Origin: Bacteroidota bacterium
GTDB taxonomy: Bacteria; Bacteroidota; Bacteroidia; Chitinophagales; Saprospiraceae
Direction of reading: 5' to 3'
Length of the DNA: 64,000 bases
Assembly (NCBI GenBank): GCA_024642705.1
Contig: JAHEAQ010000001.1
Location: forward strand, 238,225 to 302,224
Under the pieces are notes generated by a model. That model made no database searches. It saw nothing but the letters and a program-made list of their open reading frames with translations, and had not been told where the DNA came from. Position numbers and translations under genes: made by a program. Below, one piece after another: positions 2,725 to 25,253 of the stretch; the stretch's first letter is position 1; every line of letters begins with the position of its first letter.

Positions 2725-2801
2725 GGCACAGAACAAATAATTAAATATATTATAAATAAAATAACATATTTTTCAATTTATCTTAAAATAAATAACAAAT
2801 T

Positions 2802-2823
2802 AATTATTGCATATGCAATAATT
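2802..2823. promoter_or_regulatory. Perfect 22-bp palindrome between divergent operons (candidate operator)
   Basis: The bases form an uninterrupted inverted repeat: AATTATTGCAT (2802-2812) followed at once by its reverse complement (2813-2823). There is no U-tract, so it is not a terminator. It lies between the divergent promoters of the aldehyde dehydrogenase gene (2693-2700) and the aromatic operon (2902-2909), about 80-100 bases from each. That arrangement suits a dimeric DNA-binding protein. Which protein is unknown. Confidence 0.5.
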
Positions 2824-2901
2824 GCGGTCATAAGTAATTGATTTTTAGTTATTAATGGTTAAAATAAAGCTATTTTTATTTTATTATTCGAAAATAAAGG
2901 A

Positions 2902-2909
2902 TATGTTTG
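2902..2909 (+). promoter_or_regulatory. -7 promoter box of the Phe/Tyr operon leader
   Basis: TATGTTTG matches TAnnTTTG exactly. Only seven bases separate it from the leader-peptide ATG at 2917, so the transcript would start at or a few bases before that ATG. I see no clear -33 TTTG. Confidence 0.6.
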
Positions 2910-2916
2910 CCCCGTA

Positions 2917-2979
2917 ATGATAAATAACACATTAAATAATAGCTTCTGTTTCTTCTTTTACTTTTACGGAAAAAAGTAG
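2917..2979 (+). CDS. Phe/Tyr-rich attenuator leader peptide
   Basis: A short reading frame of 20 codons runs from ATG 2917 to TAG 2977-2979. Codons 10-17 encode FCFFFYFY, so seven of eight consecutive residues are aromatic (five Phe, two Tyr), exactly the end products of the operon downstream. The reading frame ends five bases before the antiterminator segment at 2984. This is the design of ribosome-mediated attenuation leaders such as pheL in enterobacteria: shortage of Phe-tRNA or Tyr-tRNA stalls the ribosome and lets the operon be read. It is too short for normal ORF calling. No homologue is known to me, so identity rests on composition, position and the RNA structures that follow. Confidence 0.82.
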   Translation: MINNTLNNSFCFFFYFYGKK

Positions 2980-2983
2980 GAAT

Positions 2984-3045
2984 AGAACTTCGTTGCATTT
3001 AATGCCCAAAATATAAAGGAGTTCTTAGCAGAACTCCTTTTTTAG
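2984..3045 (+). promoter_or_regulatory. Transcription attenuator (antiterminator/terminator switch)
   Basis: The terminator is an 11-bp stem, 3015-3025 paired with 3030-3040, with a four-base loop TAGC and a following T run. The left arm can instead pair with an upstream segment: 2984-2991 (AGAACTTC) with 3018-3025 (GGAGTTCT), eight pairs including one G-U. A ribosome stalled on the Phe/Tyr codons (2944-2967) leaves 2984-2991 free and the terminator cannot form. A ribosome that reaches the stop at 2977-2979 covers 2984-2991 and the terminator forms. The structure was worked out by eye. Confidence 0.82.
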
Positions 3046-3120: not shown

Positions 3121-3975
3121 ATGGATGATAAAAATAAATTAAAAGTAGTTATACAAGGTGTCCCTGGATCCTTTCATGAGATTGCTGCGCGTCACTATTT
3201 TAAAGACAATAATGTCGAACTTGTTCCCGCAATGGATTTCAGAACTTTAATTCAAAAATCTGAAGATGAAAAAGTTTCAGATTTTGCGGTGATGGCCATT
3301 GAAAATACTATAGCTGGTTCTTTATTAGATAATTACATTTTATTAAAAGAATCTAATCTTACAATAGTGGGAGAAGTTCTATTGAGGATTAAACACAATT
3401 TGCTCGTTATTCCTGGTACTAATATTGAAGATTTAAAGCAAGTTAATTCCCATCCTATGGCGATTTTGCAATGCAGGGAATTCTTTTACAATTATCCAAA
3501 TATAAAATTGGTAGAATCAGATGATACTGCTGCAAGTGCAATAACTGTTAAAGAAAAAGGAAACCCAAAATTTGCAGCAATTGCCAGTTCACTTGCTGCA
3601 CAGCAAATTGGACTGGAAATACTAGCACCTGAGATTGAAACCAATCATCGAAATTATACTAGGTTTTTAGTTTTAGAAAGAAAAAATGGTCACCAATTTA
3701 AAAAACACCATGTAAAAGTTTCTGTTTCTTTCGCTTTGGAACACCAGGTTGGTAGCTTAAGTACGGTATTGAATAATCTAACGAAGAATAATACCAACCT
3801 TACCAAAATTCAATCCATGCCAATTATTGGAAAAGAATGGCAATATTATTTCTTTGTTGACTTTATTATAAACGGTTTAGGTGATTTTGAGACCATTATA
3901 AATGATTTAAGGAATGACACCTCTGAATTACATATTTTAGGTACATACGAAAAAGGTGATTACTATGATAGTTAG
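3121..3975 (+). CDS. pheA: Prephenate dehydratase
   Basis: Converts prephenate to phenylpyruvate, the committed step to phenylalanine. The N-terminal catalytic domain begins with GVPGSFHEIAA near residue 13 and carries the conserved Thr-Arg-Phe triad at about 180-182 (NYTRFLVLER). A C-terminal ACT domain from about residue 200 (HQVGSLSTVLNNL) normally binds Phe for feedback inhibition. The frame is open upstream to a TTG at 3049, but that lies in the terminator's T run; ATG 3121 gives 284 residues, the usual length without a fused mutase. The chorismate mutase activity is supplied by the fourth gene. First structural gene of the attenuated operon. Confidence 0.93.
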   Translation: MDDKNKLKVVIQGVPGSFHEIAARHYFKDNNVELVPAMDFRTLIQKSEDEKVSDFAVMAIENTIAGSLLDNYILLKESNLTIVGEVLLRIKHNLLVIPGTNIEDLKQVNSHPMAILQCREFFYNYPNIKLVESDDTAASAITVKEKGNPKFAAIASSLAAQQIGLEILAPEIETNHRNYTRFLVLERKNGHQFKKHHVKVSVSFALEHQVGSLSTVLNNLTKNNTNLTKIQSMPIIGKEWQYYFFVDFIINGLGDFETIINDLRNDTSELHILGTYEKGDYYDS

Positions 3976-5164
3976 TAAAGCAAAAAGATTAGAACATGTA
4001 GAAGAATACTACTTTTCTCATAAGTTACGAGAAATTGCACAAATGAATGCAAATGGTAAGAATGTAATAAACCTTGGTATAGGAAAACCTGATTTACCAC
4101 CTCCAGCATCAGCAATTAATAGACTTAATTCTGCAGCTCTTAATGATTCTAGCCACGGATACCAATCCTACAATGGAATTCCTGAATTGAGAATGGCTTT
4201 TAGCAATTGGTACAAACAATATTATCAGACTGATTTAAATCCAGAATCAGAAATTTTGCCTTTAATTGGAAGTAAAGAAGGTATTATGCACATCACTATG
4301 AGTTTTTTAGAGTCAGGTGATGAAGTGTTAATCCCAAATCCTGGTTACCCTGCATACAGTTCTGCCGCAAATCTAAGTGGAGCTACCACGATATATTATA
4401 ACTTAACTGCTGAAAATGATTGGCTTCCAAATTTTGAAGAACTGGAAGAAATGGACTTAAGTAAGGTCAAACTAATGTGGATCAATTATCCGCACATGCC
4501 CACAGGTGCCCGAGGAAATATTGATGTTTTTGTGAAACTTATCAACTTCTGCAAATCAAACAAAATCTTGCTTTGTCATGACAACCCTTATTCATTTATA
4601 TTAAATGAAATCCCGTTTAGTATTCTTAGTATTGAAGGTGCAAAAGAATGCACCCTTGAATTGAATTCACTTAGCAAATCCCATAATATGTCTGGATGGA
4701 GAGTGGGTATGGTGGGAGGAAAGAAAGATTATATTGATACTATTATGCAATTCAAAAGCAACATGGATTCTGGCATGTTCAAAGCAGTCCAAGAAGGTGC
4801 AATAGAAGCTTTAAATATCGAAGAAAATTGGTACAGAAATTTATTTGATATCTACACTGAAAGAAAAAAAGAAGCAGAAAAAATTATCCGTCTTCTAGAG
4901 TGTGAATACATTGATAATCAAAGTGGCATGTTTCTTTGGGCTAAAATTAATGAGGGATATAATAATTCAAAGGAATTGGCCGACCATATACTTTATGGAT
5001 GTAATGTGTTCATCACACCAGGAAGCATTTTTGGTAGCAATGGCGATCAATATATAAGAATTTCTTTGTGCCAGCCAGTAGAATTGATTGCTACGGCAAA
5101 AGAAAGAATAAAAATATTTGTTGAAAATGCAGCCCAAAGCAAATTTTCACAAAAAGTAGTATAA
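3965..5164 (+). CDS. PLP-dependent class I/II aminotransferase (aromatic operon)
   Basis: Fold-type I aminotransferase, probably making Phe and Tyr from phenylpyruvate and 4-hydroxyphenylpyruvate, or arogenate from prephenate. The PLP lysine is about residue 238 in SLSKSHNMSGWRVG. Asp206 and Tyr209 lie in HDNPYSF, and the carboxylate-binding Arg is about residue 365 (YIRIS). The segment normally reading N-x-N-P-T-G is NYPHMPTG, so the Asn just before the Pro is Met (about 178). ATG 3965 overlaps pheA by 11 bases, showing translational coupling. Related enzymes include LL-diaminopimelate aminotransferase, but the operon argues for aromatic substrates. Confidence 0.85.
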   Translation: MIVSKAKRLEHVEEYYFSHKLREIAQMNANGKNVINLGIGKPDLPPPASAINRLNSAALNDSSHGYQSYNGIPELRMAFSNWYKQYYQTDLNPESEILPLIGSKEGIMHITMSFLESGDEVLIPNPGYPAYSSAANLSGATTIYYNLTAENDWLPNFEELEEMDLSKVKLMWINYPHMPTGARGNIDVFVKLINFCKSNKILLCHDNPYSFILNEIPFSILSIEGAKECTLELNSLSKSHNMSGWRVGMVGGKKDYIDTIMQFKSNMDSGMFKAVQEGAIEALNIEENWYRNLFDIYTERKKEAEKIIRLLECEYIDNQSGMFLWAKINEGYNNSKELADHILYGCNVFITPGSIFGSNGDQYIRISLCQPVELIATAKERIKIFVENAAQSKFSQKVV

Positions 5165-6004
5165 ATGAGAACAGCGATAATAGGTCTTGGATTAATTGGA
5201 GGTTCGTTTGCAAAAAGCTTAAAAGAAAATGGCATATCTACCCATATTATCGGTGTGGATGCATCGTCAGAGCATTGTGAAATTGCAATGAAACTTGGAA
5301 TTGTAGACCAAATATTGGATTTAGAGGAAGCGGTTTCAAACAGCGATCTGATTGTTGTTGCAACACCTGTTAATACTATTTCTACAATTGTAAACAAAGT
5401 TTTAGACCTTGTTGAAAATCAAACAGTTATTGATGTTGGATCTACAAAACTTGAAATTACTCAGGGAGTAAAAGATCATCCAAAAAGAAATCATTATGTA
5501 GCGACACATCCTATGGCAGGAACTGAATTTTCAGGTCCTACCGCCGCAATTTCAAAATTATTTGAAGGAAAATATGTAGTCTTATGTAATGCTGAAGAGA
5601 GTGATTATGGCAAATTTGAATTTGTGAAAAATATTTATGAAAAGCTTGGCATGAAGCCTTTGTTCCAAGATGCAAAATCCCACGACACACACGTGGCCTA
5701 CGTATCTCATATTTCTCATATCAGTTCATTTGCATTAGCCATCACTGTATTGAACAAAGAAGAAGACGAAGATAAAATATTCGAATTGGCAAGTACAGGA
5801 TTTAGTAGTACTGTCCGGTTGGCCAAAAGTTCCCCAGAGACTTGGGTTCCAATTTTTGAACAGAATAGAGATAACGTATTGGAAGTTCTTGACGAGCACA
5901 TAAATGTATTATCAAACTTCAGAAGTTTTTTAATAAAAAAGAATTATAAAGAATTTCACAAAATGATTTGTGAAGCAAATAAAATAAAAAAAATACTTAA
6001 ATAA
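5165..6004 (+). CDS. tyrA: Prephenate dehydrogenase
   Basis: Oxidatively decarboxylates prephenate to 4-hydroxyphenylpyruvate for tyrosine synthesis. The N-terminal Rossmann motif is GLGLIGGSFAKSL (residues 6-18). THPMAGTEFSG, with the catalytic-region histidine, is near residue 115. The 279-residue length fits the single-domain form, with no fused mutase or ACT domain. The start codon immediately follows the aminotransferase stop at 5164. Confidence 0.93.
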   Translation: MRTAIIGLGLIGGSFAKSLKENGISTHIIGVDASSEHCEIAMKLGIVDQILDLEEAVSNSDLIVVATPVNTISTIVNKVLDLVENQTVIDVGSTKLEITQGVKDHPKRNHYVATHPMAGTEFSGPTAAISKLFEGKYVVLCNAEESDYGKFEFVKNIYEKLGMKPLFQDAKSHDTHVAYVSHISHISSFALAITVLNKEEDEDKIFELASTGFSSTVRLAKSSPETWVPIFEQNRDNVLEVLDEHINVLSNFRSFLIKKNYKEFHKMICEANKIKKILK

Positions 6005-6014
6005 ATATTTGATT

Positions 6015-7091
6015 ATGCAAATGAAATTAGAAAATGTCTTTGGAGCTGAAAAACAAAGACCGTATATTATAGCTGGCCCATGCAGTGCTGAAACAGAAGC
6101 TCAAGTACTTGCAATAGCTCATGAACTGAAAGAACAAGACATTGATCTATATAGAGCTGGGATATGGAAGCCAAGAACAAAACCAGGATCATTTGAAGGG
6201 GTTGGTGCTTTAGGATTAAAATGGTTAAGAAGAGTTAAAGAAGAAACAGGATTGAAAGTTACTACTGAGGTAGCTAACAGAGTACATGTGGATGAATGTT
6301 TATATCATGATATTGATGTTCTTTGGATTGGCGCCAGAACTACTGTGAATCCTTTTTCTGTTCAAGAAATAGCAGATGCTTTGAAAGGTGTTGATATTCC
6401 AGTAATGGTGAAAAATCCAATAAATGCAGATTTAGCCCTTTGGATTGGGGGAATCGAAAGACTTTACAAAGCTGGAATTACAAAAATAGCAGCAATCCAT
6501 AGAGGTTTTTCTTCTTTTGGTGAAACAAACTACAGAAATGCGCCTACTTGGCAGATTCCAATCGAATTGAAAAGACAATTTCCAGATCTAACCATAATAA
6601 ACGACAATAGTCATATCTGTGGCAGGAGAGATATTCTTAAAGAAATTGCTCAAGTAGCTATGGATTTGAATTTTGATGGAATAATGACAGAAGTTCACAA
6701 TGATCCGGATAATGCTTGGAGCGATGCCGCACAACAAATTACTCCTAAAGTATTTCACGAATTGGTCCAGAGTTTGGTCATCAGAGAAAGTCAGGATTTA
6801 GATATAAAACACTCAGATCTTTCTTCAATAAGATCAAAAATTGATGTACTTGACGATGAATTGTTAAGAATTCTTTCTGATAGAATGAAATTATCTGAAG
6901 AAATAGGAAAATATAAAAAAGCACATAATATTTCTATTCTTCAACCAGGGAGATGGAATGAGATTATTGAAAAATCAGAACAAAAGGCCAAAAAAACCAA
7001 TTTGAGCTTAAGTTTTGTTTCTGAATTATTCAGAGCTGTGCACCAAGAGTCAATCAATCACCAAGAGGAAATATTAAGTAAAAACGATTAA
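6015..7091 (+). CDS. Bifunctional DAHP synthase / chorismate mutase
   Basis: Catalyses two separate steps: condensation of phosphoenolpyruvate with erythrose 4-phosphate (entry to the shikimate pathway), and chorismate to prephenate. The N-terminal (beta/alpha)8 domain is of the short type Ib kind, with AGPCSAE near residue 18, GAR(T)T and the metal-site H/E residues in HRGFSS and TEVHNDPDNAWSDA. From about residue 265 a helical chorismate mutase domain of the AroQ class follows (SSIRSKIDVLDDELLRILSD). This synthase-mutase fusion order is known in Bacteroidota. ATG 6015 or 6021 may be the start; a TTG at 6009 is less likely. Last gene of the operon, closed by the terminator at 7103-7140. Confidence 0.92.
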   Translation: MQMKLENVFGAEKQRPYIIAGPCSAETEAQVLAIAHELKEQDIDLYRAGIWKPRTKPGSFEGVGALGLKWLRRVKEETGLKVTTEVANRVHVDECLYHDIDVLWIGARTTVNPFSVQEIADALKGVDIPVMVKNPINADLALWIGGIERLYKAGITKIAAIHRGFSSFGETNYRNAPTWQIPIELKRQFPDLTIINDNSHICGRRDILKEIAQVAMDLNFDGIMTEVHNDPDNAWSDAAQQITPKVFHELVQSLVIRESQDLDIKHSDLSSIRSKIDVLDDELLRILSDRMKLSEEIGKYKKAHNISILQPGRWNEIIEKSEQKAKKTNLSLSFVSELFRAVHQESINHQEEILSKND

Positions 7092-23774: not shown

Positions 23775-25253
23775 TTGGAACAAACAATTAGTCCAGCTTT
23801 AATTATTTCTATTGTCTCCCTTTATTTCTTAATGTTGATAGGCGTTTCCTATTTCACAAGCAAAGGGGCAGGTAACCAAACATTTTTTAACGCTGATAGA
23901 AAATCACCTTGGCTTTTGGTGGCTATAGGTATGATTGGTGCTTCACTTTCTGGCGTTACTTTTATATCAATTCCGGGGGTTGTAGGAAAAGGTGGATATA
24001 ATATGAACTTTTCATATATGCAAATGGTGTTAGGGTACTTGGTTGGTTATGCAGTTATAGCGCTTGTTCTAATGCCAATATATTATAAAATTGGATTAAC
24101 AACCATCTATACTTACTTAGATGACAGATTTGGAAAATATTCATATTTGGTTGGGTCGCTGTATTTTTTACTCTCTAGATTGGTAGGGTCAGCATTGAGG
24201 CTTTTTTTGGTCTCAATTGTATTTCAAAAAATTGCGATGGACCATTTGGGAGTTCCTTATTTTGTGACTGTATTGATTGCAATTGCATTAATTTGGGTCT
24301 ACACATTTAAAGGTGGAATTAAAACAATAGTGTTCACTGACACTTTACAAACTTTTTGTATGATAACAGCTGTTTTACTGACAGTTGTTGCCATTGGGAA
24401 ATCTCTAGGAGCCACCAATATTTTTGATACTTTCTCCTTAGTAAAAGATAGTGCTTATAGTCAAATGTTCTTTTTTGAAAATGGATGGAATGATCCCAAC
24501 AACTTTTTTAAGCAGTTTATTAGTGGAGCCTTAATTGCTACAGCTATGACAGGGCTAGATCAAGACATGATGCAAAAGAATTTAACCTGCAAAAACCTGG
24601 GTGAAGCTCAAAAAAATATTTTCACATTCAGTGCAATTCTAATATTTGCCAACATACTTTTCCTTTCTTTAGGTGCTTTATTGTATTTGTATGCGGCTTC
24701 AAAAGGAATACAAATTCCTGAAAAATCAGATCAACTTTACGCCCTTATTGCTTTGAATCATTTGAATCCTTTTATTGCTATTCTTTTTGTTTTGGGACTT
24801 ATTGCAGCGGCTTATTCAAGCGCTGATTCTGCATTAACTGCTTTGACAACTTCATTTTACATTGACATTTTGAAGTATGACAAAAGAGACAAATCAGAAA
24901 GGGAACAAAAGAGGACTAGAATGATAGTTCATATAGCTTTTTCGTTTTTGAGTTTTGTCATCATTCTAGCCGTTAAAGCATTAAATAATGATGCGATAAT
25001 CAATGATCTGTTTATTGCAGCAGGTTATACTTATGGGCCAATTATGGGGCTATTTGCTTTCGGAATTTTGACCAAATACAAAATTCACGATCAATGGACC
25101 ATTCCAATTTGCTTAATGTCTCCTATTATCACGTATTTTATCAATTCTAATTCAGAAGCTTGGTTTGGTGGTTTTTCTTTTGGGGCAACAATTTTAGGAT
25201 TAAATGCAATAATTACATTTATTGGCTTGTTTTTAGCTTCTAAAAGAAATTAA
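23775..25253 (+). CDS. Sodium:solute symporter (SSS family), linked to murQ
   Basis: 492 residues with about 13-14 transmembrane helices. The family core ASLSGVTFISIPG lies in TM2 (residues about 55-70), and helices near LYFLLSRLVGSALRL and AAYSSADSALTALTTSFYIDI follow, the latter close to the Na+-site region of SSS proteins. It starts at TTG 23775: an in-frame stop (23754-23756) is just upstream and the next ATG would cut the first helix. The gene is one base from murQ, so the substrate may be a peptidoglycan amino sugar such as MurNAc. In Tannerella a membrane transporter (MurT) is encoded with a MurNAc kinase and MurQ; here the kinase is not next to it. Confidence 0.82.
   Translation: MEQTISPALIISIVSLYFLMLIGVSYFTSKGAGNQTFFNADRKSPWLLVAIGMIGASLSGVTFISIPGVVGKGGYNMNFSYMQMVLGYLVGYAVIALVLMPIYYKIGLTTIYTYLDDRFGKYSYLVGSLYFLLSRLVGSALRLFLVSIVFQKIAMDHLGVPYFVTVLIAIALIWVYTFKGGIKTIVFTDTLQTFCMITAVLLTVVAIGKSLGATNIFDTFSLVKDSAYSQMFFFENGWNDPNNFFKQFISGALIATAMTGLDQDMMQKNLTCKNLGEAQKNIFTFSAILIFANILFLSLGALLYLYAASKGIQIPEKSDQLYALIALNHLNPFIAILFVLGLIAAAYSSADSALTALTTSFYIDILKYDKRDKSEREQKRTRMIVHIAFSFLSFVIILAVKALNNDAIINDLFIAAGYTYGPIMGLFAFGILTKYKIHDQWTIPICLMSPIITYFINSNSEAWFGGFSFGATILGLNAIITFIGLFLASKRN

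Follow-up and report, generated by a model that had tools for sequence, protein, structure and literature searches.

How might the phenylalanine and tyrosine operon near the start of the window (the whole 64,000-nucleotide stretch analysed here) respond to the supply of its own products? The structural genes had been predicted to make exactly Phe and Tyr, and this was borne out by Pfam, which finds a prephenate dehydratase (PDT), an aminotransferase, a prephenate dehydrogenase (PDH) and a DAHP synthase/chorismate mutase (CM). The operon and its upstream neighbour are laid out as follows.

1225-2688, opposite to the pheA operon: aldehyde dehydrogenase gene, the upstream neighbour
3121-3975, + strand: pheA, prephenate dehydratase with an ACT-like C-terminal part (Pfam PDT, E 3.9e-53; ACT under cut-off)
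3956-5164, + strand: class I/II aminotransferase (Pfam, E 5.6e-55); the exact start is unsettled and the frame overlaps the end of pheA
5165-6004, + strand: tyrA, prephenate dehydrogenase (Pfam PDH_N/PDH_C)
6009-7091, + strand: DAHP synthase-chorismate mutase fusion (Pfam DAHP_synth_1 and CM_2)

Ahead of pheA lie a short frame rich in Phe and Tyr codons, a promoter motif and a set of alternative RNA stems.

2902-2909, + strand: promoter -7 element TAnnTTTG (TATGTTTG), the only TAnnTTTG match within 2801-3000
2917-2979, + strand: leader peptide frame MINNTLNNSFCFFFYFYGKK with stop, Phe/Tyr control codons 10-17; the sole such frame in the window; Portibacter lacus and P. marinus have leaders like it
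2944-2959, + strand: region 1, leader codons able to pair with 2972-2987 in the minimum-energy structure of the leader (1:2 hairpin, occupying part of region 2)
2956-2981, + strand: local hairpin across the stop codon (2956-2965 with 2972-2981), fold -5.4 kcal/mol; its counterpart in relatives shows covariation
2984-2991, + strand: region 2 (AGAACTTC), antiterminator 5' strand, directly past the stop codon
3018-3025, + strand: region 3 (GGAGTTCT), the strand common to antiterminator and terminator
3015-3042, + strand: intrinsic terminator, regions 3:4 (3015-3025 with 3030-3040, then T's), -13.8 kcal/mol

The frame opens with ATG and runs for 20 codons in total before TAG, and its codons 10-17 specify F C F F F Y F Y. 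As expected of an attenuator, the amino acids that the operon makes are those whose codons cluster in the leader, and this clustering recurs in relatives. Among the 1501 short frames of the window (10-40 aa, 722 and 779 on the two strands), the leader alone combines at least six Phe or Tyr in nine residues with a strict terminator; six other frames reach 6/9 and have no terminator. Under a looser rule (at least 5/9 Phe, Tyr or Trp plus a terminator), one further frame passes, LVWWFFFWGNNFRIKCNNYIYWLVFSF at 25160 on the + strand, which has a weak terminator-like hairpin (-9.4 kcal/mol) behind it and may be due to chance. The motif TAnnTTTG is presumably a -7 element of the Bacteroidota type. 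In the window it starts about 15 nt ahead of the leader ATG, a distance so short that the frame may sit on an almost leaderless transcript, the exact 5' end being a prediction; in relatives, 49/87 motif matches of first or only leaders sit 25-34 nt ahead of the start codon.

The switch elements also hold up. The original prediction had placed the 20-codon Phe/Tyr frame with FCFFFYFY at 2917-2979, a strong terminator at 3015-3040 before pheA and an antiterminator option of 2984-2991 with 3018-3025; the coordinates and codons of the frame agree, the terminator (AAAGGAGTTCT-TAGC-AGAACTCCTTT, with T's next) has the strength expected, and pairing equal to that of the antiterminator arises in just 2/100 shuffles of the region. 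The folded leader as a whole has a z-score of -4.2, with 1/200 shuffles equally good. The complete leader is predicted to adopt a longer 1:2 pairing (2944-2953 with 2978-2987, plus 2955-2959 with 2972-2976) that uses part of region 2, the classical attenuator arrangement, and its outer pairing ranks at 0.05 against swapped pairings. Less can be said for the Cys codon between the Phe codons, which had been proposed as an extra sensing point and probably is not one. Its TGT lies inside the 1:2 helix, where the G forms a G-U pair in the minimum-energy fold, and this place in the helix would be a simpler account than cysteine sensing. The codon is common to the three Portibacter leaders; at its position in 110 leaders with three sense codons past the last Phe or Tyr, Phe stands in 59 and Tyr in 25.

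Together, these elements very probably constitute a ribosome-mediated transcription attenuator in which a single leader senses both charged tRNA-Phe and charged tRNA-Tyr. With ample Phe and Tyr, a ribosome translating the leader would pass the Phe/Tyr codons, reach the stop and cover region 2 (2984-2991); with region 2 covered, the terminator at 3015-3040 would form and a short leader RNA would result. With Phe or Tyr in short supply, the ribosome would stall at codons 10-17 and break the 1:2 hairpin, leaving region 2 free. Free region 2 would then pair with region 3 (3018-3025), no terminator would form, and the operon of pheA, aminotransferase, tyrA and DAHP synthase/CM would be read. The spacing in the window suits this scheme, since Tyr17 starts at 2965, 19 nt ahead of region 2, and the stop codon starts 7 nt ahead of it. 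Exactly three sense codons follow the last Phe or Tyr both in the window and in 101/168 leaders, so that, given the footprint of a ribosome, region 2 would be exposed while the ribosome is at the last aromatic codon and covered once it is at the stop.

Whether the arrangement is peculiar to this genome was judged from homologous loci. Searches for PheA homologues covered relatives, family, order, class and phylum, and also the named genomes of Portibacter lacus and P. marinus and a single Saprospiraceae MAG; the window's genus was assumed to be Portibacter, family f1 was equated with Saprospiraceae, and the orientation of each locus was set by tblastn. PheA matched in 206/298 family genomes, part of which were sampled, and 108 distinct family loci, some of them reached via other searches, stand in the survey of 210 loci. 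PDT matches were obtained in 53/119 order genomes, 41/149 class genomes and 128/148 phylum genomes; at most 30 loci were taken from each of these three groups, plus 20 stretches. Loci were chosen mostly by PheA or PDT match score, not randomly, and those with short upstream sequence were dropped (less than 150 nt, 2/165, in the 163-locus count; less than 300 nt in the 162- and 210-locus counts).

Leaders of this kind are frequent before pheA. A leader with at least 6/9 Phe or Tyr lies within 500 nt of pheA in 124/163 distinct loci, against 45/3260 shuffles and 0/163 reverse strands, and two such leaders occur in 45/163 loci against 0/3260 shuffles. When at least 5/9 Phe, Tyr or Trp and a strict terminator are required, 142/162 loci qualify, against 1/486 shuffles and 6/162 reverse strands. 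In the larger survey, an aromatic-rich frame with a terminator precedes pheA in 159/210 loci: 101/108 in f1, 24/27 in the rest of the order, 34/46 in the rest of the class and 0/29 outside the class. Homologous pheA operons had been proposed as the place to look for the leader and its alternative stems, and these counts, along with the fit of region 2 to its own terminator arm described below, bear the proposal out. Inside the class, 159/181 sampled loci carry the module and 22/181 do not by the criteria used. It was not found in f33 (0/5), f42 (0/2) or f45, f74, f82, f2 and f3 (0/1 each), and it is present in part of f36 (2/4) and f12 (2/3). One frame in L034, MHLLGFFFFFF, 1 of 173 frames within 700 nt, has no terminator and was judged spurious. 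In family f59 (L153, L158, L164, L165), leaders end in a common (D/S)-(K/E)-S-R-(D/G) tail, not in G-x-P, and in L153, L158 and L164 the predicted hairpin begins in the aromatic codons ahead of that tail, another tail solution in another family.

Where at least 1000 nt of sequence follow pheA, the same strand carries a downstream aminotransferase like that of the window in 77/84 loci with a leader and in 11/43 without one; the 43 leaderless loci comprise 28 outside the class (aminotransferase in 0/28) and 15 inside it (11/15).

Terminators and antiterminators recur with the leaders. A strict terminator starts at most 75 nt past the stop in 168/172 leaders against 55/516 shuffles, the shuffled stretches being 110 nt long and the observed ones up to 170 nt. 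The antiterminator is within the best 5 of 100 shuffles in 105/168 leaders and outside them in the other 63/168; the shuffle tests, like the Fisher test below, treat loci as independent of kinship. Of the 105 leaders whose pairing beats the shuffles, 54 have its start in the stretch from 2 nt ahead of to 5 nt past the end of the stop codon; in the remainder the predicted duplex extends further upstream. In both the window and the group tests, the antiterminator occupies the terminator's 5' arm and the two are mutually exclusive, the arrangement that defines an attenuator.

This pairing is specific to the locus. Region 2 pairs with its own terminator arm at a mean of -11.94 kcal/mol, against -8.48 kcal/mol with the arms of other loci, and its own pairing falls in the best 5% of swaps in 63/166 cases, where 8.3 are expected. 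A repeat on 214 modules gave -9.41 for own against -6.64 for swapped arms (KS p 7e-23), with the window ranking at 2%. Where two modules stand in tandem, region 2 favours the arm of its own module in 65/86 cases, with 1 tie. The outer 1:2 pairing is weakly locus-specific in relatives (median rank 0.51, KS p 0.003; 23/214 in the best 5%). In folds of complete leaders, the terminator is absent from the minimum-energy structure in 31/214.

A compact hairpin over the stop codon adds a further element. A Tyr codon stands four codons ahead of the stop in 82/147 distinct leader ends, and its third base co-varies with that of the last sense codon: 43 T-A, 33 C-G, 2 T-G and 4 non-pairing combinations (2 C-C, 2 T-T), so that 78/82 can pair (Fisher p 5e-20 on the 78 with A or G, kinship ignored). 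This covariation is evidence of a hairpin spanning the stop. When the leaders are placed on the PheA tree, those of first or only modules are concordant in 65/66 cases, with 14 changes at one site and 15 at the other; 4 independent well-supported pairs change in the same direction in nearly all random pairings, too few to reach 0.05. The second module is concordant in 30/30, with 4 changes at each site and 2 well-supported pairs. Against synonymous shuffles the hairpin stands out weakly (21/168 at or below 0.05, 8.4 expected), perhaps because the hairpin itself shapes the codon pool, and in the window it is no better than the shuffles (rank 0.44). In nascent folds, before the terminator 3' arm is made (n = 214), hairpin and antiterminator occur together in 106, the antiterminator alone in 46, the hairpin alone in 7 and neither in 55. 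A C-terminal Pro that slows release was considered for these leader ends, Pro being the last residue in 67/168 leaders, but the covariation of third bases points to RNA pairing, alongside which a release effect may still exist. The hairpin would mean that third codon positions are selected on grounds unrelated to protein sequence.

Three other accounts of the locus deserve weighing. The terminator might merely end upstream or spurious transcripts, with pheA served by a promoter of its own and the Phe/Tyr frame an accident of T-rich DNA. Such DNA does yield Phe-rich frames, as the shuffles that produce leader-like frames and the six other Phe/Tyr-rich frames of the window attest. An accident of composition, however, would hardly explain why families share Tyr-bearing leaders with a three-codon tail, followed by a terminator and by pairing specific to each locus, nor why 163 reverse strands yield none, and the gene at 1225-2688 runs the opposite way, which leaves no co-directional neighbour to terminate. 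This account is extremely unlikely.

It is also highly unlikely that the leader acts through translational coupling or reinitiation in place of the transcription terminator. Leader genes near structural genes have been proposed to help reinitiation, according to the part of the source available (PMC4833913), but the distance from leader stop to pheA is 141 nt in the window and, measured to the aligned pheA start, 47-390 nt in relatives' loci, and a strong terminator sits between leader and pheA. The stems might instead be bound by a protein or small molecule, in the manner of TRAP, a riboswitch or a T-box, with the peptide secondary. Leaders resemble one another, however, in the amino acids they encode, the length of their tail and their pairing, and not in one RNA core. 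At gathering score no Rfam family, T-box included, matches anywhere in the 64-kb window, and none of the sub-threshold matches on the leader strand is convincing (best E 0.31, to a fungal snoRNA model). Apart from the existence of the conserved stop-codon hairpin, nothing positive speaks for ligand binding, and the chance that it is the main mechanism is very slim. Attenuation by ribosome stalling on a Phe/Tyr leader is the reading preferred here. If it is true, leader-peptide attenuation by two amino acids would head the Phe/Tyr pathway across much of the class (the 159/181 sampled loci), as a device that carries no Rfam annotation in the window, to which the Rfam scan was confined.

In many relatives, the attenuator module is present twice. 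Two modules were found in 45/123 loci in one count and in 55/159 positive loci of the 210-locus survey, where f1 contributes 53 of the 55 and f56 and f68 one each. Module-to-module spacing is 141-190 nt in 41/45 two-module loci. The motif TAnnTTTG occurs within 80 nt upstream of 86/121 first or only leaders, 2/45 second leaders and 9/492 control windows in pheA; its presence before first leaders and rarity before second ones indicate that both modules are apparently on one transcript. With two modules behind one promoter motif, RNA polymerase would need to pass both gates. A division of labour, one module for Phe and one for Tyr, was rejected, as the Phe and Tyr content is nearly equal (means in the last 16 residues of 4.82 F and 2.98 Y in the first module, 4.98 F and 3.13 Y in the last).

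On the PheA tree, the two-module label switches about 20 times, and all three Portibacter genomes, among them that of the window, have a single module. In seven of the one-module loci, over 200 nt separate the module from pheA, and some second modules may therefore have escaped notice. In L031, the modules stand 443 and 286 nt upstream of pheA, whereas its relatives L034 and L035 have them at about 320 and 153 nt; L031 has extra sequence ahead of pheA, and no third module was found there. Many Saprospiraceae probably carry two full Phe/Tyr attenuators in series per transcript, answering to the same signals and with gates that would multiply, together with a stop-codon hairpin that involves the last Tyr codon and is under synonymous selection. 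Loci with such a doubling would lend themselves to asking whether two identical attenuators in a row make a response sharper or deeper.

The window's own genome has further putative leader peptides, seen in the regions upstream of trpE and hisG. A Trp leader (MKRNNLNNTNWWWHFKEFRMC and stop, L175 1310-1375, contig C186) lies upstream of trpE with TATATTTG directly upstream of it, and a terminator-like hairpin, judged by eye, lies between the leader and trpE. The genome has two hisG genes, and His-rich leaders stand upstream of both copies, each followed by a terminator-like hairpin, again judged by eye.

L177 1167-1223: His-rich leader MNFIQLHHHHFHTCTQAS and stop
L176 1210-1266 (numbered on the reverse complement of L176): His-rich leader MKIINLHIHHQFFLIPFG and stop

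These leaders and hairpins suggest that leader-peptide attenuation may be a wider habit in this genome.

One of the closest known parallels is the enterobacterial pheL/pheA attenuator, in which a leader peptide rich in control codons and an antiterminator/terminator switch precede pheA. The present locus resembles that system (Rfam RF01859, Phe_leader) in its control-codon leader, its switch and the pheA downstream. It differs from pheL in that its control codons cover both Phe and Tyr, the two products of its operon, and in belonging to another phylum; RF01859 has no match on the leader strand of the window and scores only below threshold on the reverse strand (21.6 bits against a cut-off of 55). 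In E. coli trpL, three sense codons separate the last control codon from the stop. The modules described here are like trpL in placing control codons in region 1 and in the three-sense-codon tail, and unlike it in the amino acids concerned, in the compact stop-spanning hairpin with covarying third bases and in being often doubled in series.

By the account given in the available part of a 2010 paper, no leader-peptide system was known outside Proteobacteria and Actinobacteria, ermC aside, before its own find in Firmicutes (PMC2965389). In Bacteroides thetaiotaomicron, short frames in 5' UTRs are described as reminiscent of leader peptides in the accessible part of another report (PMC7366714). 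A search by title and abstract, mostly in the open literature, found no description of a Phe/Tyr leader in Bacteroidetes, of leader peptides in Saprospiraceae or of tandem amino-acid attenuators. In Flavobacterium psychrophilum, the available portion of one study reports amino-acid operons with strong signs of attenuation by leader peptides, as well as a structured element 5' of pheA that other Flavobacteriaceae share and that has no Rfam hits (PMC9723704). That element is like the present one in standing at the same gene in related bacteria; the Phe/Tyr codons at pheA, the tandem modules and the stop-codon hairpin are not named in that portion of the account (PMC9723704). The novelty claimed in the original prediction is smaller than supposed for an attenuator upstream of pheA in Bacteroidetes as such, because of that pheA element and those leader-peptide clues, and larger through the two modules in series in many relatives.

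Two short leader frames per leader RNA are known from Salmonella mgtCBR, where, in the part of the report at hand, the two leaders sense ATP and proline (PMC3641672); unlike these, both modules here have the same Phe/Tyr make-up, and each has its own terminator. The attenuator reading is well supported by comparison across loci, with its function deduced from sequence; the mechanism is of a known kind, and its dual Phe/Tyr content, its spread within the class, the stop-codon hairpin and, above all, the serial doubling in relatives set this form apart as new.
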